Of a DNA stretch of 52,391 nucleotides, positions 1-10,769 are shown piece after piece. Location: contig JAQQAI010000004.1 in NCBI GenBank assembly GCA_028532915.1, forward strand, positions 1-52,391, given 5' to 3'. A program made the translations under genes and the position numbers. This stretch comes from Sphaerochaetaceae bacterium. Its GTDB lineage: Bacteria; Spirochaetota; Spirochaetia; Sphaerochaetales; Sphaerochaetaceae. The notes under the pieces were generated by a model. It was not told the origin of the DNA and searched no databases. It saw only the letters and a program-made list of their open reading frames with translations. Positions within the stretch are counted from its first letter, which is position 1. Each line of letters opens with the position of its first letter.

Positions 1-487
1 AGAGGATCTGCTCGAAGGTCTTCTCATCCAGTGCAGGCGTACGGCTGAGAATCCAGAGAGAACCTTTATTGGCTGTTGTGACAGCAGCCCACTGGTAGTT
101 CTCCTCGTCGAGTTCGATTATCAGGTATGCGGCAGGAAAAACCTTGAAGAAGACAACCCGCAGCCAACTGCCCCGTTCATCCATCGCAGTACCTACAGCT
201 CTCACCTGCTGCGAATAGGTTCCACCGTACTCATCTTCCCAGCATCTGTTGAGCACATTGATTTTGCCGTCTTCTCTCAAGCTGTACTCTGCGGTTGAGT
301 CACCGCACTCTCCCCGCTGGAAGGAGTGAGGATACCGTCCCACCTGATACCACAGGCCGCTGTAACGTGTGAGGTCTACCTTGTCTACCAGCAGATCGGA
401 CATCTCAGGCGAAATAGAGGTGGTGCAACCGGTCCATAGTACCAAAACAAGAATGATCATGAAGCTCAAGAGTGCGATTCTCATCAT
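1..487 (-). CDS. blc: Blc-type outer-membrane lipocalin lipoprotein (3' end outside window)
   Basis: Reading the minus strand from ATG 487 gives an N-terminal hydrophobic stretch (MMRIALLSFMIILVLVLW) ending in TGC, a lipoprotein-type cleavage site. The lipocalin signature follows at about residues 41-58 (YSGLWYQVGRYPHSFQRG), and further on come NVLNRCW and the barrel segment WLRVVFFKVFPAAYLI. This matches bacterial lipocalin Blc, an outer-membrane lipoprotein that binds fatty acids or lysophospholipids and helps envelope maintenance. The start at 487 is supported by AGGAG six bases upstream; a second ATG follows immediately. The reading frame is open at base 1, so roughly the last 10-20 residues are missing. 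A membrane-lipid operon lies divergently next to it, which fits a lipid role but does not prove co-regulation. Confidence 0.85.
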   Translation of the reverse strand, partial: MMRIALLSFMIILVLVLWTGCTTSISPEMSDLLVDKVDLTRYSGLWYQVGRYPHSFQRGECGDSTAEYSLREDGKINVLNRCWEDEYGGTYSQQVRAVGTAMDERGSWLRVVFFKVFPAAYLIIELDEENYQWAAVTTANKGSLWILSRTPALDEKTFEQIL

Positions 488-1515: not shown

Positions 1516-2181
1516 ATGGGCATAGAGATTATGGTAATTCCGGCCAGTTGTATCGGCGCCTATCTCATCGGCGGGATACCGACGGCCTTCCTCCTTGCTA
1601 AGCGCAGAGGGGTATCGATTCTCTCTTTTGGAAGCGGCAGCAGCGGTGCAACGAACACGGCACGATCCTTAGGAGTTAAGAATGGATTGATCGTCGCTGT
1701 TATCGATATTCTAAAAGGTGCCCTGCCGGTCCTGATTGCCCGGTCGGTCATCGGACTCACCGTTCCAGGATACCTCCTCACCGGCCTCTCTGCCGTGTTC
1801 GGGCACATTTATTCCCCATACCTAAAAAAGTTCAAAGGGGGCAAGGGGGTGGCTACAGGTGCCGGAACAATAGCGGTGATCTATCCCCCGGCTATCCCTT
1901 TTGCTCTGACGGTCTTTGCTCTGGTTCTGGCCGTCAGCAGATATTCATCTGCAGCTTCGCTGACCTCCCTGTTCCTTGTCATCCCCTACTACATACTTCT
2001 GAGCATGGTCACAAAAAAGGCATTCGATCCGTATATCGTCGCATTTCTCAGTGTTCTGTTCCTTCTCATAGCCTTCTCGCACAGAAAGAATCTCTATCGG
2101 CTCATTCACGGGACCGAGTTAACATTCACTTCGTCAAAACAGAAATCCAGGGAGGAAATTGATGCTCATAACCGGAACTAA
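1516..2181 (+). CDS. plsY: Acyl-phosphate:glycerol-3-phosphate acyltransferase PlsY
   Basis: PlsY moves an acyl group from acyl-phosphate to sn-glycerol-3-phosphate at the inner membrane, the first step of phospholipid synthesis. The family motifs are in order: GSGSSGATNTARSLG (about 41-55; usual form GSGNxGATN, here with Ser for Asn), then GHIYSPYLKKFKGGKGVATG (about 96-115), with several hydrophobic helices between. At 221 residues it is slightly longer than typical (about 200), mainly through the N-terminus and a polar tail. The start follows the previous stop with no gap, and AAGGA lies nine bases upstream. Its last 20 bases overlap the next gene, a predicted producer of acyl-phosphate, PlsY's own substrate. 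Confidence 0.93.
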   Translation: MGIEIMVIPASCIGAYLIGGIPTAFLLAKRRGVSILSFGSGSSGATNTARSLGVKNGLIVAVIDILKGALPVLIARSVIGLTVPGYLLTGLSAVFGHIYSPYLKKFKGGKGVATGAGTIAVIYPPAIPFALTVFALVLAVSRYSSAASLTSLFLVIPYYILLSMVTKKAFDPYIVAFLSVLFLLIAFSHRKNLYRLIHGTELTFTSSKQKSREEIDAHNRN

Positions 2182-3955
2182 GCTGTTCGATTCTGTATCC
2201 TGCGGATACTATCATCTGCTGAGCAATCAGCAGGAGATCAACGATATCAACGTATTTCCTGTCGCCGACGGGGATACGGGAACCAACATGCTCCACACTT
2301 TCAAGGCAGCCCTCACAAAAACGAACCGTTCGAAGTCAATCGCACGGACTACCGACAAGATGGCACAGTCAGCTCTCATCGGTGCACGGGGTAATTCCGG
2401 AATGATCATCGCACAGTTCTTCCGAGGCTTCTATGAAGTTGCAAAAGACTTCGAAGCTTTGAGTGTTCAGAATTTCGTTGCTTCGGTGAACAGTGCTGTA
2501 ACCTTTGCCTATGATGCAGTAGAGACACCCGTCGAAGGAACTATCCTGACTGTGATGCACTCCTGGTCCAGAGCGATAAATGAGGCATGGCATGCTAAGA
2601 CCCCCATTCCCCTGCTGCTCAGGCGCGCTCTTCGATCTGCAAAAACAGCTGAGACTCTGACTACCGAGCAACTGCAGGCTCTCAAGAAGGCCGGGGTGGT
2701 AGATGCCGGGGCCAGGGCTTTCGTCTATTTTTTGGAAGGAATCGATCAATATCTCAGTCACGGCAAGGACGTTCGAATGGAGGAAAATCAGTCCTTTGAA
2801 ATTGAACATCAGCTCTCAGACGCACATGAGCAGTTACTTGAACGGCCGACCTTTCGTTACTGTACCGAAGCTCTGCTTTGCTCATGCACAATTGCTCCCG
2901 AGAAGGCGAAAGAAGCGCTCCACGATCTGGGTGATTCTTTAGTGATCGGGTCTCACAAAGAGATGATGCGGGTCCACATCCATACCGGGTCACCGAACAT
3001 GGTCTTCAGAAAACTAGAAGAATTCTCCCGTATTGAAGAAACCAAAGTCGATGATATGCTCGCACAGTATGCAGCGATTCATGAGCGTCTGTCTGATATT
3101 GCCATCGTTACCGACTCATCTGCCGATATCCCGCAGTATCTTAAAGATACTCTGCAGATCTACCAGATACCACAGGTCATCCAGTGGAATGACCGTTCAT
3201 TCATCGACCGCATCTCAGTCGATAACACCTACCTGCTTGAGACAATGCTCACTTCAGAAGACCTTCCAACCTCTTCGATGCCATCTTCAGGAAGCATAGG
3301 ACGACACCTTGAGTTCCTCTCCGAACACTACAGGGAAATTATCATAATCTCGGTCTCTGCTGCACTGAGCGGAACCTTCCGCACATACGAGCTCGCCGCC
3401 CGGGAGTTGAGAAAGCGCGATTACCCGATACAAATCATCGATTGTAAGCGTAACGCAGGAGCTCAGGGACTGATCACCATCAAAGCGGCACAAGCTGCCG
3501 CTGATGGGGAATCTGCTCCTGCGATCAAAGACAGGATCGCCTCTCTGATCAAAAGGTCGACCATCCTCGTCTCTGTCCAGTCTCTTGAATCGATGGTACG
3601 CGGAGGAAGGGTCCCTGAGAAGATCGGAAGGCTCATCGTCAGATCTGGAATCAAACCGATAGTAGGACTCTCTCCAGAAGGCTCTGGAGCTATCAAGGGA
3701 ATCAAACTTACCCAGAACGGTAGTGCGTCTGCCTTGATTCGACGATTTGTCAGAGACTGGAAGCATGGCGGTATCACCGAATTCAGTATCTCGCACGTCA
3801 AAGCCCCTGAACTTGCACACACAATCGCATTGATCATACAACAGAAGACAGGTCTACAGCCCAAGTTCATTCAGGAAACCTCTCCGGTAGTCTCGCTGCA
3901 TGCGGGCAAAGGGGCCGTATCGATAGCCTGGATCAGGGAACCGGAACGCGCATAA
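2162..3955 (+). CDS. Fused fatty-acid kinase FakA (DhaL + middle domain) and FakB (DegV)
   Basis: Residues 1 to about 200 form a DhaL/DAK2 kinase domain with the Mg-ATP motif NVFPVADGDTGTNM (31-43; Asp36, Asp38). About 225-305 match the FakA middle domain (LGDSLVIGSHKEMMRVHIHT). About 310-597 form a complete DegV/FakB domain: IAIVTDSSADI, TSSMPSSG, SVSAALSGTF and ESMVRGGRVPEKIG. In Firmicutes FakB carries a fatty acid to FakA, which phosphorylates it to acyl-phosphate; here both partners are one chain. ATG 2162 is preferred over the in-frame TTG at 2159 because GGAGG at 2151-2155 is correctly spaced from it. Overlap with plsY suggests translational coupling, placing the acyl-phosphate maker next to its consumer. 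The domain calls are firm; fatty-acid specificity is inferred from homology and context. Confidence 0.88.
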   Translation: MLITGTKLFDSVSCGYYHLLSNQQEINDINVFPVADGDTGTNMLHTFKAALTKTNRSKSIARTTDKMAQSALIGARGNSGMIIAQFFRGFYEVAKDFEALSVQNFVASVNSAVTFAYDAVETPVEGTILTVMHSWSRAINEAWHAKTPIPLLLRRALRSAKTAETLTTEQLQALKKAGVVDAGARAFVYFLEGIDQYLSHGKDVRMEENQSFEIEHQLSDAHEQLLERPTFRYCTEALLCSCTIAPEKAKEALHDLGDSLVIGSHKEMMRVHIHTGSPNMVFRKLEEFSRIEETKVDDMLAQYAAIHERLSDIAIVTDSSADIPQYLKDTLQIYQIPQVIQWNDRSFIDRISVDNTYLLETMLTSEDLPTSSMPSSGSIGRHLEFLSEHYREIIIISVSAALSGTFRTYELAARELRKRDYPIQIIDCKRNAGAQGLITIKAAQAAADGESAPAIKDRIASLIKRSTILVSVQSLESMVRGGRVPEKIGRLIVRSGIKPIVGLSPEGSGAIKGIKLTQNGSASALIRRFVRDWKHGGITEFSISHVKAPELAHTIALIIQQKTGLQPKFIQETSPVVSLHAGKGAVSIAWIREPERA

Positions 3956-4044: not shown

Positions 4045-5322
4045 TTACAGTAAAGAAGAGTAACCTAATAAGATTTTCCACAGCGGGATAACGTTTATAG
4101 TGCAATCATCTTTTTCAATCACTCTTTCTTCATCAAATGAGATCACATATAACTTTTTACATTTCCTGAACGCTGAGAATTGTATGAGAGCTTTTATTTC
4201 TCTCTCTTGTGTCTCATCATTGCTCATGGAGTAACAGACTTGCACTGCCATATCTGAATCAGGCAGATAGAAATCTATTTCATAAGAAGTATTGTTGAAA
4301 AAGAACACAGACTCTTTCTCGAAACGTTGAACCAGGTAAAGGGCTGCAAGATTTTCTAATAAGGCGGAATCCTGATGTAGAAGGAACAAGTTTAATAACC
4401 CTGTATCATAAAAATAGTATTTCGGATTCGTAATCTTCTCACTGAATTTTGAATCGATGTTCTTTATATCGAACACCAGAAAGGAATCTTTCATCATTTC
4501 TACATATTGAATTATTGTGTTCTTTCCTACTTTCACCTTTGAACTTTTTATCAGATTTGTCAATCTCGAGAAAGAGATCGGGTTTCTCACAGATTCTGCC
4601 AGTTTGTTCGGAATGTACCTTAAAGCATTGGTATTACTGATATCATTTCGTAAGGCTATATCACCCAGGTATATTTTTTGGAAGATATTGTTGAGATAAT
4701 TTCTTTTCGATGTGATCGCGGCAATTTCAGGTAATCCACCGAAATGGAGAAATTCATTGAATTCGTACACAAGATTGGCTTTCTTTTCTGTCGAGTATAC
4801 ATCTGCTTTCTTATGAGTAATATGTTTTGCGCGCAGGAATTCTTTGAAGCTAAAGGGAAACACCTCATGAATCAGGAATCTCCCCCCTAGAGTTGTAGCG
4901 ATCTCTCTGCTCAACATCTTCGCATTACTACCGGTTATATACAAAAGATATTTCGAGTCTGCCAATCGTCGAGCAAACTTCTCCCATCCTTCAATGATCT
5001 GGATTTCGTCCAAAAAGAGGATCGGTTTCGTATTGAATAGTTGGTAATGAGCTTCAAGGAGACTGTTAAAATCCTCGACTTTGAAATTTATCAGTCTTTC
5101 ATCTTCAAAATTGATCAATAGAATCGAATCCCATGAGGCCCCTTTTTGGACCAGTTCACGAATTCTCTGATACAATAGATATGATTTTCCGCTTCGTCGT
5201 AATCCCACAAAAACGTAGGGCATATTCTCCTCAAGGACAATGGTCCTTTCAATACAATCGAGGGATGTTACAAGTTCTCTATTTTCAATTATGATTTGTT
5301 TGAGCAATTCTTTATCAATCAT
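4045..5322 (-). CDS. AAA+ ATPase with C-terminal DUF4143 domain (copy 1)
   Basis: Residues 1 to about 210 form a P-loop ATPase: Walker A GLRRSGKS (40-47), Walker B ILFLDEIQ (about 97-104) and the sensor-like YITGSNAKM. The second half (about 220-380) is the DUF4143 region with YFYDTGLLNLFL and a nuclease-fold-like SYEIDFYLPDSDMAVQVCYS. Proteins like this are abundant in anaerobes and spirochaetes, and their cellular job is not established. I chose ATG 5322 because GGAG lies five bases upstream; an in-frame TTG at 5385 would place the palindromes and the -10 box inside the gene. It has its own promoter and two operator-like dyads. A second, clearly divergent paralogue lies next to it on the same strand. 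Confidence 0.8.
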   Translation of the reverse strand: MIDKELLKQIIIENRELVTSLDCIERTIVLEENMPYVFVGLRRSGKSYLLYQRIRELVQKGASWDSILLINFEDERLINFKVEDFNSLLEAHYQLFNTKPILFLDEIQIIEGWEKFARRLADSKYLLYITGSNAKMLSREIATTLGGRFLIHEVFPFSFKEFLRAKHITHKKADVYSTEKKANLVYEFNEFLHFGGLPEIAAITSKRNYLNNIFQKIYLGDIALRNDISNTNALRYIPNKLAESVRNPISFSRLTNLIKSSKVKVGKNTIIQYVEMMKDSFLVFDIKNIDSKFSEKITNPKYYFYDTGLLNLFLLHQDSALLENLAALYLVQRFEKESVFFFNNTSYEIDFYLPDSDMAVQVCYSMSNDETQEREIKALIQFSAFRKCKKLYVISFDEERVIEKDDCTINVIPLWKILLGYSSLL

Positions 5323-5682
5323 GGTATCTCCGCCCTTTTGTTCTGTATACAAAACAATAGTAACATTATAACGTTCTACATTCAAGACAATATATAACTT
5401 TTATTGTCCTGTATACAAAACAATAACGACTTATCACATCTTTGCCATAACTGAATAAGTTAGCCTTGCAGTTTTTAAAAAGTCAGATTTTTAACCTATC
5501 GCTTCATACATATACGCTTTTACATAGTATTCATTGAAAACTATGTGTTCACTTGGTTTCAACGGGATAAAGGATCTTTCCCTGACCAGATCAGGAGGAA
5601 TACACATCACCCCTTGCAGTTATTCACACCTTTCTCTCGACCGCTGGACGATTATAACAGCGGCGCTAATAGGAGTACACAC
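5323..5682. promoter_or_regulatory. ATPase-1 promoter with two GTATAC dyads, then 250 bases without a gene
   Basis: On the minus strand TATAAT lies at 5365-5370. Two 22-base dyads of the form WTTGTyCTGTATACAAAACA flank it, at 5337-5358 (downstream side) and 5403-5424 (upstream side), centres 66 bases apart. The inner TGTATACA is a perfect palindrome and the outer ATTGT/ACAAT arms pair. This is the arrangement expected for a repressor that covers both edges of a promoter. Between them GACAATA (5386-5392) is inverted at 5401-5407 as TATTGTC. From 5425 to 5682 I see no gene; a 7-bp hairpin (ACATAGT/ACTATGT, 5522-5546) lacks a T-run, so I do not call it a terminator. Confidence 0.55.
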
Positions 5683-7011
5683 TCATAAGAACATTGTCAG
5701 ATAGACAGGTAAATAGATGGTATCTCCTTGAATTTTCAGATCTTTCGTATATATTACGATTCTCTCCCTGATCCTTCCAGAATATTTCTTTGAAAACATA
5801 TCTAAGGACTTGTGAGTCTTATATCCTGAAGCTTTTACTTCAATAGGAGATATTTCATCTTCTTTTGCAATTAGGAAATCCACTTCATAGGTTTTCTTTT
5901 GTTTTTTATCATAATATGTGTGATAGTAAAGTTTCTTCCCATTAGAAGTCAGAATCTGTGCAACTGCATTTTCATATATAATACCTAAACTGACAGGCAA
6001 TTTGTCATTTAATAGTTTTGTATAAATAATGTTATCTGTAAAATCTTTATCCTTGAAGATCAGTGTGACAAGCAGACCTGTATCTGCTAAATAGAGCCTG
6101 AATTTATCTTTATTGAACATATTGGACAGGCCTATATTTGGATCACTGACATTGTAAGATGTCATTACGGTCTTTGAAGAATTAAGTTCTGATATTTCTT
6201 CTGATACGGAATCTTTTCTGTCATTAGGCAGGATACTTGAGATCTGAAAACTTGAGGAATGTTTATTCAATTCGGAGGGAACAGCATCATACAACGCTGA
6301 AATCTTTCCTTTCGAATCCATCTTATAAAAATCATCTTCATACAAATTGATTATATCCCTTTTAATCTGATCCACTGTTTCCAGATTATTACTCTCTATA
6401 TATGCTTTGATTGCTTGAGGCATTCCCCCAACTAGCATATATAGCCTAAATTTTCGCATCATATTTCTGTTTTGCTCATCGCCTATAGATATTCTTTCAT
6501 CAAACATTCTTTGTAAGAGTTTCGGTGTTTGTGTATCTCCTGTGGCCCATAAAAATTCTTCAAAATCCATAGGGTACATTTGAAGTTTTCGTTCTTCACT
6601 GGGGATCAAAATATCTTTTACGTTTTTTCGAATAGAGATCAGAGAGCCGGTTTCAATAAAATCATATCTTCCATCTGCCACCAGAAGTTTTATAGACTGT
6701 CTTGCAAGAGGATTGAATTGAACCTCGTCAAATACTATCAGAGACTCTCTTGCGACTAAATTTACACCATATTGAAGTTGTAATTGTAAAAAAAAGTAAT
6801 TCAAATCAGACAAATCTTTAAACAGATTCTGAATTGCAGATGAGGCAAATGCAAAATCGATCATTATGTAGCTCGTGTACTCTCTTTCAGCAAATTTTTT
6901 GACAATCGTTGATTTTCCGACCCGTCTTGCCCCTTCAATCAAAAGAGCCGTTCTCCCTTTCGATTCCTTTTTCCATTTTAGCAATTTAGAATAGATCTTC
7001 CTTTCAAACAT
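5683..7011 (-). CDS. AAA+ ATPase with C-terminal DUF4143 domain (copy 2)
   Basis: Walker A is GARRVGKS (27-34) and Walker B LIVFDEVQF follows about 70 residues later, with DFIETGSLISI as the sensor region. The C-terminal DUF4143 part contains FRLYLADTGLLVTLI and a nuclease-like EVDFLIAKEDEISPIEVKASGYKTHKS: Glu/Asp, then E-x-K in a PD-(D/E)xK-style spacing. Function is unknown; family members are often called putative archaeal-type ATPases. Residues around the P-loop and the length differ enough from the neighbour at 4045 to rule out a recent duplication. An in-frame ATG at 7068 would extend it, but that extension is encoded by one copy of an upstream direct repeat, so ATG 7011 after TTGGGGG is preferred. 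Confidence 0.78.
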   Translation of the reverse strand: MFERKIYSKLLKWKKESKGRTALLIEGARRVGKSTIVKKFAEREYTSYIMIDFAFASSAIQNLFKDLSDLNYFFLQLQLQYGVNLVARESLIVFDEVQFNPLARQSIKLLVADGRYDFIETGSLISIRKNVKDILIPSEERKLQMYPMDFEEFLWATGDTQTPKLLQRMFDERISIGDEQNRNMMRKFRLYMLVGGMPQAIKAYIESNNLETVDQIKRDIINLYEDDFYKMDSKGKISALYDAVPSELNKHSSSFQISSILPNDRKDSVSEEISELNSSKTVMTSYNVSDPNIGLSNMFNKDKFRLYLADTGLLVTLIFKDKDFTDNIIYTKLLNDKLPVSLGIIYENAVAQILTSNGKKLYYHTYYDKKQKKTYEVDFLIAKEDEISPIEVKASGYKTHKSLDMFSKKYSGRIRERIVIYTKDLKIQGDTIYLPVYLTMFL

Positions 7012-7040
7012 AAGGAACCCCCAATCTTTCCCAAGTTTCA

Positions 7041-7089
7041 ACAAATACGCACTTTTCAAATATCCCATTTACCACAAATACGCACTTTT
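7041..7089 (-). repeat. Direct repeat upstream of ATPase copy 2
   Basis: ACAAATACGCACTTTT occurs at 7041-7056 and again, identical, at 7074-7089, 33 bases apart (about three helical turns). Both lie 30-78 bases upstream of the preferred ATG at 7011. The spacing suggests two protein-binding sites on one face of the DNA. I cannot identify the protein, nor a convincing -35/-10 pair. Confidence 0.55.
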
Positions 7090-7260: not shown

Positions 7261-8517
7261 TCACTTCATTTCATTGATTTTAGTCAGTTGATTCACTTTC
7301 TCAAAGGTTCCGCTATTATTCACTGCAAGCAGCTCCGGGTAGGTTTCGTTCAAGTCTTCCAACTTGGGAATATCCCACTGGGTGATATATGGATGCTCTG
7401 TGTTATTGATCAAGAAGTCCTGATGATAATCTTCTGCTGGATAAAAGGCCTTGAGTTCAATGACTCTAGTGACGATCTCATCATCAAATATTTGAGCTTC
7501 GGTCAGGTCTTCTATATATTGCTCTGCTTCTCTTTCCTGCTGTTCATCAGTGAAGAAGATCGCTGATCTATATTGACGACCTCTGTCCGGTCCCTGGTAA
7601 TTAAGCTGAGTCGGATCATGTGCGACCGTGAAGAAGACTTCAAGCAGCGTTTCATAATCAATAAGGCTTGGATCATAGAGTATCCTCACGGCTTCCGCAT
7701 GATTCGTCTTCCCTGATGAAACCTGATAGTACGTGGCCGACTCTTCTGTCCCCCCGCTGTACCCTGATTCGACATGAACCACTCCATGAAGCTGCTCGAA
7801 TACTGCTTCTACACCCCAGAAACATCCGCCTGCAAAGACTGCTGTTTCAATCTCTTCGTTGTCATACAGTTCTTTCCAATCGGGAAGCTCTTCTCTGATG
7901 ACAAGACGTGAACTCTCTTCACCGAACAGATAGAGAAATTTCCCGTACCCTTCTTTTACCAGATCATCTTTGGGGATGAACTTGAGAGATGCCGAATTGA
8001 TGCAGTAGCGAAGTCCTGTCGGATCGGGTCCGTCCGAGAACACGTGACCGAGATGGGAATCACCGAAATAGCTCCTTACCTCGGTTCTTTTCATACCATA
8101 TGAAGTATCAATAATCTCTACGATATTCCCGGAGGATAACGGCCTTGTGAAAGACGGCCATCCCGTACCTGATGTGAATTTGTCGGTGGAACTGAATAGT
8201 GGTTCACCGGATACGATATCTACATAGAGACCCTCTTCTTTATTATCCCAGAACTCATTATTGAAGGCAGGTTCGGTGCCTTCATGCTGTGTTACATCAT
8301 ACTGCATCTGGGTCAGTCGTTCATGCAGTTGTTCATCTGACAGTTTCTCCCATGTTCCCTCTTCATAGCCGACAGGGAGGAAGGGGTCAGTCTCCTCAAT
8401 GGAAAATGATGTTGTCTTCTCATATGATTCCTGATTTCCCCGTGATATCAGAATTAGTGGTATAAAGATCAGGAATACTAATACGATAAGCACATATTTT
8501 ATTTGATTATCTTTCAT
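7261..8517 (-). CDS. Membrane-anchored bifunctional methionine sulfoxide reductase, MsrB-MsrA order
   Basis: Residues 8-25 form a single membrane anchor, so the enzyme faces the periplasm. MsrB spans about 55-185 with SGTGWPSF and the catalytic Cys172 in [11 protein letters not shown]. MsrA spans about 222-385 with Cys232 in AGGCFWG and the substrate region [16 protein letters not shown]. Together they reduce both diastereomers of Met-sulfoxide. The zinc CxxC pairs of many MsrBs are absent, as in other secreted forms. The protein has only two cysteines, one per active site, so the usual resolving cysteines are missing and each sulfenate must be reduced directly by a partner thiol. That partner is probably encoded just upstream (DipZ and thioredoxin). 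GGAG precedes the ATG by eight bases. Confidence 0.92.
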
Positions 8518-8601
8518 AATATTGACTCCGATAGTCTTTTTGACTTTTGACAGAAAATCTGTCTACAGGCTATTGAACGGATCCATATTGCATGAATCTG
8601 T

Positions 8602-10311
8602 TCAACCGAAGGTGAATGTGAACAGTCTCAGGTGACCTGAAATCTTAAGTTTCAGGAATTTTTCATCCGAATCATCGAAACTTGCCAGATGGTACAATCT
8701 GCTGCTGCCAGGTGTGAGCACACCGTCGGTCACATCAGGGGTGTCCTGCGGTTTGTTCCCATCTATTTCAACTGTGACGACACTCTTATCATCTCTGGGT
8801 TCGATGACGATAAAAAGGTCTTTTCCCTCGAAGCGGAGCTCCAATTCCCCATCTCCGTCGATTTCGATAAAATCATTTCTGATGATCCACCTGCCGTCTA
8901 ACGTCCACTCTCCTTCTTCGAGATCTTCTTCTTTCTCGAAAGAGGTGAGAACATCTATCTCATCAATTTTCCCGGAAATAAAATTCTTTGACCTTGAGTA
9001 TCCCAGATAGATTTCAGCAGTACGTTGTCCCATAGTATCGCTGGATGTTTTCGTATCATTTTCAGTTTCCAGTTCAGCCCCGTTCTCCTTCAGAAGGGTC
9101 CGTATCACCTGCTCTCCCTCTTCATATCCACCTTCACCGAAATGGAAGTACCTGATCTCTCCGTTGCCGTCAATGAAGAATTGAGCCGGCCAATACCGGT
9201 TGTCGTAGGCATTCCATTGAGAGAAATCGTTATCGAGGACAACCGGCCAGGTTATATTCAATTCTTCGATCGCCTTTGAGACATTGCCGACATTTCTTTC
9301 GAAAGGGAATTCCGGTGAATGAACCGCGATGATCTCAAACCCATACTTCTCATATGTGTCGTACAATTCTCTGAGGTGAGGAATCGTTCTCACACAGTTG
9401 ATACAGCTGTAGGTCCAGAAATCCAACAGGACAACCTTACCTTCCAGATCCTCCATCGAAAAAGGTTGTCCGGTGTTCAGCCAGGGCCCTTCAGCTATGA
9501 GTTTTGGCGCTTTCCCGTAATTCGAAACCCGGGCCGATTGAGGAGCATTTGTCCAGTCGAACCCATCACTCATTCCATTGCGGTCATTCAGGGCTTTCTG
9601 TACCAGCTCCCCCTGTTCGAAGCGGGTCAAACCTGTTCCGTAATTCGGAAATACATCCAGAATGAATGTTTGGAAACTACGGTCGGCACCGAAGCCGATC
9701 ATCAGCCCTGCAGCAATCATGACAGATCCGAAGAAACGTTGAATATCTTTGGTTCTCTCTGTGATCTTCGGGAAACGATTCAAAAGCTTCCGGCCGCCGG
9801 CCATGATCGCGAACATAGGGAGTGCAGTACCTAATGAGTAGGCTGCAACAATGATCACCGCCCCTCCATCCAACTGCTGACTTACGGCCAAAGTGATTAT
9901 GGAGGCCATGATCGGACCTACACAGGGTGTCCAGACCAGGCCGAGACTGAAGCCGGTCATTACTCCTCCGAAGAATCCCTCACGTTTTGCAGAACTTTTC
10001 GTACGTGCAACTTTTGATAGAAGGACCTCTAAGGCAAGCTGCAGTCTAGGGATCATCAAAATAATTCCGAAAGTTATGATGATCACTACCGCAACGATTC
10101 GCAGGGCTTCAGCAGATATTGAAAGTGTTTGAACCAGGGCGGAAAGAGTCAATGTGAACAGGCTGAAACTGAAGATGAATCCTGTGACGATACCTGCAGG
10201 TTTACGCTTCCCCCCTACCGTCCCCGAAAGGACGATAGGGAGTACAGGAAGAATGCAGGGTGATAGTATCGTCACTATACCTGATAAGAAAGCGAAAAAA
10301 GCAAGTACCAT
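8602..10311 (-). CDS. dipZ: DipZ-type thiol electron transporter: CcdA domain + thioredoxin domain + C-terminal beta domain
   Basis: Residues 1 to about 215 are a CcdA/DsbD-type membrane domain with the paired cysteines Cys19 (LSPCILP) and Cys130 (TPCVGP) that carry electrons across the inner membrane. About 265-400 form a TlpA/thioredoxin-like domain with Cys303-Ile-Asn-Cys306 in DFWTYSCINCVRTIPHL. About 425-569 are an acidic beta-rich domain like the carbohydrate-binding-like C-terminus of mycobacterial DipZ. The predicted role is to bring cytoplasmic reducing power to periplasmic acceptors, here most likely MsrB-MsrA encoded next. Its ATG overlaps the stop of the thioredoxin gene by one base (TAATG), so translation is coupled. 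Confidence 0.9.
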   Translation of the reverse strand: MVLAFFAFLSGIVTILSPCILPVLPIVLSGTVGGKRKPAGIVTGFIFSFSLFTLTLSALVQTLSISAEALRIVAVVIIITFGIILMIPRLQLALEVLLSKVARTKSSAKREGFFGGVMTGFSLGLVWTPCVGPIMASIITLAVSQQLDGGAVIIVAAYSLGTALPMFAIMAGGRKLLNRFPKITERTKDIQRFFGSVMIAAGLMIGFGADRSFQTFILDVFPNYGTGLTRFEQGELVQKALNDRNGMSDGFDWTNAPQSARVSNYGKAPKLIAEGPWLNTGQPFSMEDLEGKVVLLDFWTYSCINCVRTIPHLRELYDTYEKYGFEIIAVHSPEFPFERNVGNVSKAIEELNITWPVVLDNDFSQWNAYDNRYWPAQFFIDGNGEIRYFHFGEGGYEEGEQVIRTLLKENGAELETENDTKTSSDTMGQRTAEIYLGYSRSKNFISGKIDEIDVLTSFEKEEDLEEGEWTLDGRWIIRNDFIEIDGDGELELRFEGKDLFIVIEPRDDKSVVTVEIDGNKPQDTPDVTDGVLTPGSSRLYHLASFDDSDEKFLKLKISGHLRLFTFTFG

Positions 10312-10769
10312 TATGAGCCGTCCTTTACATTTGAAAGCAGGCTGTCAGTGGCCCCGCCATTCCATTTGACTATGGCTTCCCCGTTTTCATCTATCTGTAC
10401 AAAGGTATGCTGATAGGAAACTCCATACTTTTTCTGAAGATCATCTGAATTGTCATAATCGACCAATATGATGTTGATATGCTTAAGTTCATCCTGCCGT
10501 TCGTTGAATTCTTCGCGTGCACTTCTGCAGGTTGGACACCAGGAAGCATAGAAGAAAAGTACTGTAGGCGCCTCCGAAGCGATCATTTTCGCCTGTTCCA
10601 GGTTCTGATAATCTATGAAAGGCTCTGCAGTTGTATTCATGGTCTGCCCGTCCTGTACCATCATCATCATGGCATTCTCAGGCTCCGGGGCCGATTCCTT
10701 CTTTCCTCCTGAAAAAAGAGGGGAACTGATTGCTAATACTATAATTATTGATATGGTTAACGTTTTCAT
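10311..10769 (-). CDS. Exported thioredoxin-family protein
   Basis: A 152-residue protein with an N-terminal signal peptide (1-20, ending SPLFS before GGKKES), a short Met-rich linker (MMMMVQDGQTM) and a thioredoxin domain with the redox pair Cys78-Pro-Thr-Cys81 (FFYASWCPTCRSAREEF). There is no lipobox cysteine, so it is probably a soluble or signal-anchored periplasmic protein. The likely role is to take electrons from the DipZ membrane domain and pass them to MsrB-MsrA. AGGAGGT ahead of the ATG is the strongest ribosome site in the operon. The unusual methionine cluster between signal and domain could act as an oxidant-sensitive patch or a metal site; this is speculation. Confidence 0.85.
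   Translation of the reverse strand: MKTLTISIIIVLAISSPLFSGGKKESAPEPENAMMMMVQDGQTMNTTAEPFIDYQNLEQAKMIASEAPTVLFFYASWCPTCRSAREEFNERQDELKHINIILVDYDNSDDLQKKYGVSYQHTFVQIDENGEAIVKWNGGATDSLLSNVKDGS

Follow-up and report, generated by a model that had tools for sequence, protein, structure and literature searches.

The window analysed here is a whole contig (C4) of 52,391 bases, from a 2.64-Mb genome that is 97% complete. Three genes follow each other on the forward strand near its start. The first (754-1515) encodes an integral-membrane protein of the DUF1295 family (PF06966, 196 bits), similar to the Steroid_dh, PEMT and ICMT proteins. It has weak matches to steroid-reductase, PEMT and ICMT profiles, and no solved structure matched it closely in our search for structural relatives. 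Its stop codon lies immediately 5' of the start of plsY (1516-2181), which encodes the glycerol-3-phosphate acyltransferase that uses acyl-phosphate (PF02660, 140 bits; TIGR00023 above the equivalog cut-off; closest solved relative 5xj5, E = 6e-28). The Gly-3-P pocket residues of this PlsY are retained and the position of Asn37 in aaPlsY is occupied by a Ser. The last 20 nt of plsY (2162-2181) overlap the third gene (2162-3955), which encodes a putative single-chain fatty-acid kinase of 597 amino acids. Its ATG start lies 6 nt downstream of a GGAGG motif (2151-2155), the likely ribosome-binding site, and an alternative in-frame TTG start is possible upstream at 2159. A lipocalin gene (Lipocalin_2, 111 bits; positions 2-487, reverse strand) diverges from the operon and is truncated by the start of the contig. 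It is intact (3120-3683, reverse strand) in L002, a closely related Spirochaetia MAG where the order of the three genes is kept and the kinase protein is 87% identical. The overlap with plsY, the lipocalin and the lipid-type membrane enzyme had all been indicated in a preliminary description made from the sequence alone, and all are found. Straight after the operon, two adjacent ATPase genes on the opposite strand (4045-7068), the first with AAA_14/DUF4143 domains and the second recognised from its translation only, look unrelated to it. Further on (7261-10769, reverse strand), the translations suggest three consecutive genes, for a methionine-sulfoxide-reductase-like fusion, a CcdA/thioredoxin-like fusion and a thioredoxin-like lipoprotein.

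The kinase protein joins in one chain the modules FakA_N (Dak2, residues 33-194, 118 bits), FakA_L/M (FakA-like_M, residues 231-304, 64 bits) and FakB (DegV, residues 313-592, 177 bits). The last is a complete domain, covering positions 2-279 of the 280 of the profile. The architecture proposed initially, i.e. DhaL, the FakA middle domain and a full DegV/FakB domain in a single protein, is therefore correct. The carrier had been called an acyl-carrier protein; FakB binds fatty acids and is not an ACP, so the fusion stands while the wording does not. The description also overlooked that FakA-like_C (PF13684, hereafter FakA_C) is lost and that FakB takes its place: Pfam searches found this domain neither in the protein nor in its genome. 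In the fused set, about 1-6 residues separate the DegV domain from the kinase half. The relatives of the protein in the PDB are 7w7h (FakA, E = 2.5e-41) and FakB structures. Its matches to the NCBIfam equivalog FakA NF038248 (162/975 bits) and to the YloV subfamily TIGR03599 (286/396 bits) are below the cut-offs and cover the N-terminal half only. An AlphaFold model of the fused protein built from a two-row alignment had a pLDDT of 34 and was not used.

The FakB side of the protein keeps Ser371, Ser403, Arg483 and His580, where the Ser/Thr and His positions (Ser371, Ser403 and His580 here) are those that we take to be the relevant ones in FakB structures. In the kinase half, the residues mapped from Staphylococcus aureus Fak (PMC9136124) are also kept, both those for Mg/ATP (Asn30, Asp36, Asp38, Thr39, Asn78 and Asp181) and the catalytic triad (Cys234, His272 and His274). 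These key residues are also kept in almost all of the 30 fused proteins that we compared. Judged by its residues, the protein is what one expects of a Fak: Mg/ATP site, Cys-His-His motif and FakB ligand residues are all in place. It resembles S. aureus FakA/FakB in its Dak2 domain, its Cys-His-His middle domain and a DegV domain with conserved Arg, Ser/Thr and His. It differs in being one chain, with one fixed carrier, without FakA_C, and in belonging to a clade where the docking Arg (see below) is not conserved. FakA_C and a separate FakB are traits of two-component systems. Hence, the absence of FakA_C lowers the case for a canonical FakA, not the case for a protein that works like Fak.

We surveyed 296 Spirochaetota genomes, in which counts refer to related genomes and not to independent events. 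DegV is present in 34 of them. It is a separate protein in eight, always accompanied by FakA_C, and fused in 25, which lack FakA_C apart from three weak PF13684 hits located on the DegV domain itself. The remaining genome has just a fragment, at the end of a contig. Genomes that lack both PlsY and PlsX never encode DegV, which is found in 18 of the 28 genomes with PlsY and no PlsX versus 11 of the 90 with both. All 25 genomes with a fusion encode PlsY, versus 4/8 of those with the separate form, and the pattern is the opposite for PlsX (8/25 versus 7/8). The PlsX counts leave out PF02504 matches of about 390 amino acids, which we rejected as presumably GrdD. Some genomes have several copies of the fused gene: G099 (L053 and L054; two of its copies adjoin each other) and G119 (L055, L056 and L082) have three DegV matches each.

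The two forms also separate within the family of the window genome (139 genomes). Nine members have a full-length fusion and none of them has PlsX, including three genomes assembled in a single contig. Of the 15 members with the separate form, 12 encode PlsX, in most cases no more than a few kb away from fakA or fakB; the three others are 72-88% complete. We tested two of the separate-form genomes for PlsY (G227 and G240), and both lack it, as well as FabF. In these small genomes fakA, plsX and fakB lie together (L077 and L078), and their hosts may live on imported fatty acids converted to acyl-ACP. There are thus two alternative modules in one family: fakA, plsX and fakB, without plsY where tested, and DUF1295, plsY and a fused fak, without plsX. 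Both use the same kinase and carrier modules and acyl-phosphate chemistry. The former has separate genes, FakA_C, and PlsX instead of PlsY, so its acyl-phosphate would probably be destined for acyl-ACP, whereas that of the fused module would go to glycerol-3-phosphate.

The window genome has FabF. We found in it no PlsX, no second DegV, and no second fakA or fakB. The separate genes that, according to the preliminary description, could have been doing this job elsewhere in the genome were thus looked for and not found. The genome also has four matches to acyltransferases of the PF01553 type, and its family includes members without PlsX, PlsY and DegV. Hence, there is probably another route to phosphatidic acid in this genome, and the DUF1295-plsY-fak operon may be accessory.

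We tabulated the neighbours of DAK2-DegV chains, as had been suggested. The order DUF1295-plsY-fusion, with genes mostly overlapping, is found in eight genomes at about 50% identity. Since it is also kept in L002, at 87% identity, it does not result from chance. Other arrangements include the fusion followed by plsY (G169, G063 and G271), plsY divergent from the fusion (G203 and G253, the latter also with DUF1295) and the order fakB-fakA-plsY (G218). This recurrence of the adjacency in differing gene orders points to a functional link between Fak and PlsY. Thermomicrobium roseum has fakB next to plsY, with fakA divergent. A second copy of the fusion in G169 adjoins DUF1295. In Firmicutes, DUF2177 precedes the fusion and DUF1295 follows it, with an overlap between the fusion and DUF1295 genes, and plsY is not next door (Listeria monocytogenes, L. 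innocua, Enterococcus raffinosus and Acetoanaerobium noterae). DUF1295 is thus a more widely conserved partner of the fusion than plsY, which had been overlooked. These data also qualify a contrast drawn at first with characterised Firmicutes, where FakA and FakB were said to be separate: the same fusion occurs in Listeria, Enterococcus and Acetoanaerobium and is not unique to the window genome. The preliminary description suspected that the fusion might already exist in domain databases; a 2010 study lists lmo0590 as a 'hypothetical DAK2/DegV domain-containing protein' (PMC3091722), and we infer from the species, the domain content and the neighbouring genes that this is the Listeria fusion found here. 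The lmo0590-type protein shares with the window protein its domain order, its clade and its DUF1295 neighbour. It differs in having DUF2177 upstream, no adjacent plsY, a canonical FakA in the same strain and about 32% identity to the window protein.

A phylogeny of the kinase half unites the fused proteins of the two phyla in one clade (support 99/100), apart from the FakA that have FakA_C, including Listeria's own. The f33/f49 fusions are placed elsewhere, where long branches meet (p-AU = 0.062 against one clade). They are probably separate and may represent a second origin. Comparisons with hhalign match most fused FakB domains to separate FakB at 100% probability and to FakA_C at 4%. An intermediate position of fused FakB, between FakB and FakA_C, is therefore unsupported for the spirochaetal set. 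Firmicute fusions match PF13684 with up to 61 bits, and some separate FakBs do so more weakly, which may reflect only the known fold kinship of FakA_C and FakB. A search of viral contigs found nothing.

The residue of S. aureus FakB that docks on FakA_C is an Arg (Arg202 of MW1315, Arg205 of FakB1), which also binds membranes (PMC9136124). It is present in 21 of 22 separate FakBs, whereas none of the 32 proteins of the main fused clade has Arg or Lys at this position; the window protein has a Lys one residue away. One could think that the Arg was lost as a result of the loss of FakA_C. We rejected this explanation: all 10 f33/f49 fusions keep the Arg, the residue has a role at membranes, the count comes largely from one clade and the window protein has that neighbouring Lys. 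Its absence is a trait of the clade and not a proof.

The f33/f49 fusions (L061, L063, L086, L087 and L088; genomes G087, G127, G102 and others) form a second fused clade and lie in aryl-polyene-like clusters. These encode ketoacyl synthases, ACPs, an ApeI-like dehydratase, an aromatic amino acid lyase, MMPL and an LpxL-like acyltransferase, with PlsY in the region, and the gene of a 4HBT thioesterase overlaps the kinase gene. An acyl-phosphate step in the assembly of a pigment lipid would be new.

We consider it likely, on the residues, the operon and the gene content of the genome, that the window protein is a one-chain fatty-acid kinase that supplies acyl-phosphate to PlsY. The DegV/FakB half would take up the fatty acid, the Dak2 half and the FakA middle domain would phosphorylate it, probably as a dimer like in S. 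aureus, and the acyl-phosphate would pass to PlsY. With FakB tied to the kinase, FakA_C would be unneeded, which would account for its absence. S. aureus FakA deprived of FakA_C is still active, with an approximately tenfold higher KM for FakB (0.99 versus 0.09 µM; PMC9136124), which suggests that a tethered FakB could do without this domain. Since the genome has no PlsX, the fused kinase would be the only source of acyl-phosphate found for PlsY. The preliminary description had proposed such a supply of PlsY without a PlsX step, and the intact catalytic residues, the conserved linkage to plsY and the lack of PlsX make it probable. The direct channelling suggested there goes beyond what we propose. 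In Firmicute mutants that receive fatty acids or a thioesterase, Fak is known to supply PlsY without PlsX (PMC13245860), and the window genome would be a natural case of this. Some observations count against the full reading. The Listeria strain also encodes a canonical FakA, which makes its fusion an additional system that may act on a different substrate. The Ser at the position of Asn37 is found in 6% of PlsY homologues, and the N37S variant of aaPlsY retains 18% of its activity (PMC5700162). Finally, five near-complete genomes have PlsY and neither PlsX nor DegV (G006, G049, G017, G095 and G260), hence PlsY may serve other purposes or use other donors. Among their loci (L091 in G260, L092 in G017), that of G006 (L090, C1:1625346-1625912) and that of G049 have PlsY inside an open frame of 427 amino acids, which is possibly a fusion or merely a long frame.

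The fatty acids used by the kinase could come from outside the cell or be released from acyl-ACP by a thioesterase. Whether the cell reuses its own, freed in this way or by lipid turnover, is a question within the supply of PlsY and not a competitor to it, and we regard such reuse as somewhat less probable than its contrary. It is consistent with the presence in the genome of FabF and of a match to the acyl-ACP thioesterase family PF01643. Furthermore, a thioesterase and Fak replace PlsX in Streptococcus pneumoniae, according to work cited in PMC13245860. However, members of the family that lack Fak or PlsY also have PF01643 matches, which are thus not tied to the system.

A serious alternative, since the link with DUF1295 is broader than that with plsY, is that fused kinases act with the DUF1295 enzyme on an unusual carboxylic acid (modified, branched or another specialised acyl chain), uptake of fatty acids for phospholipids not being their main job. 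DUF1295 adjoins the fusion in Spirochaetota and in Firmicutes with overlapping genes, a carrier fixed to one kinase suits a single substrate, and the Listeria strain has a canonical FakA besides the fusion. The ketoacyl synthases, ACPs, ApeI-like dehydratase and 4HBT of the f33/f49 clusters make an aryl-polyene-like acid a plausible substrate. Yet, these clusters belong to a separate branch with other sequence traits, and the window fusion is the sole Fak of its genome, beside plsY and without PlsX, which makes this alternative unlikely for it. It is very improbable that the protein is a regulator or the relic of a kinase: DegV-family proteins long had no assigned function and we came across no activity measurement on a fused protein, but all catalytic and ligand residues are kept over great divergence, in a conserved operon.

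If the window protein supplies PlsY, it bears on how acyl-phosphate, which is unstable, passes from the kinase to PlsY, an open question in the field (PMC5700162). The PlsY-DegV fusions of Bellilinea and Thermanaerothrix also tie FakB to the PlsY step, with FakB fused to PlsY and not to the kinase. They led to the proposal of channelling from FakB to PlsY, which according to the same authors PlsY does not need (PMC5700162). In the full-text literature that we searched, mostly outside subscription journals, no work on a FakA-FakB fusion came up, biochemical or other; the preliminary description likewise knew of no biochemical one. As far as we found, a Fak without its docking domain in two phyla had apparently not been described as such. 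More tentatively, fused Faks could form a distinct class of kinases across phyla, with the carrier in place of the docking domain, where fused forms go with PlsY and separate ones with PlsX, DUF1295 is a regular partner and the tethered FakB exchanges lipid at the membrane; we find this broad view possible but doubtful as a whole. One-chain kinases that lack FakA_C offer a natural test of the purpose of this domain, and the recurring DUF1295 neighbour provides a handle on a membrane family. For these bacteria, the association of PlsY with a fused kinase in the absence of PlsX would mean that PlsX is not obligatory in the acyl-phosphate pathway.
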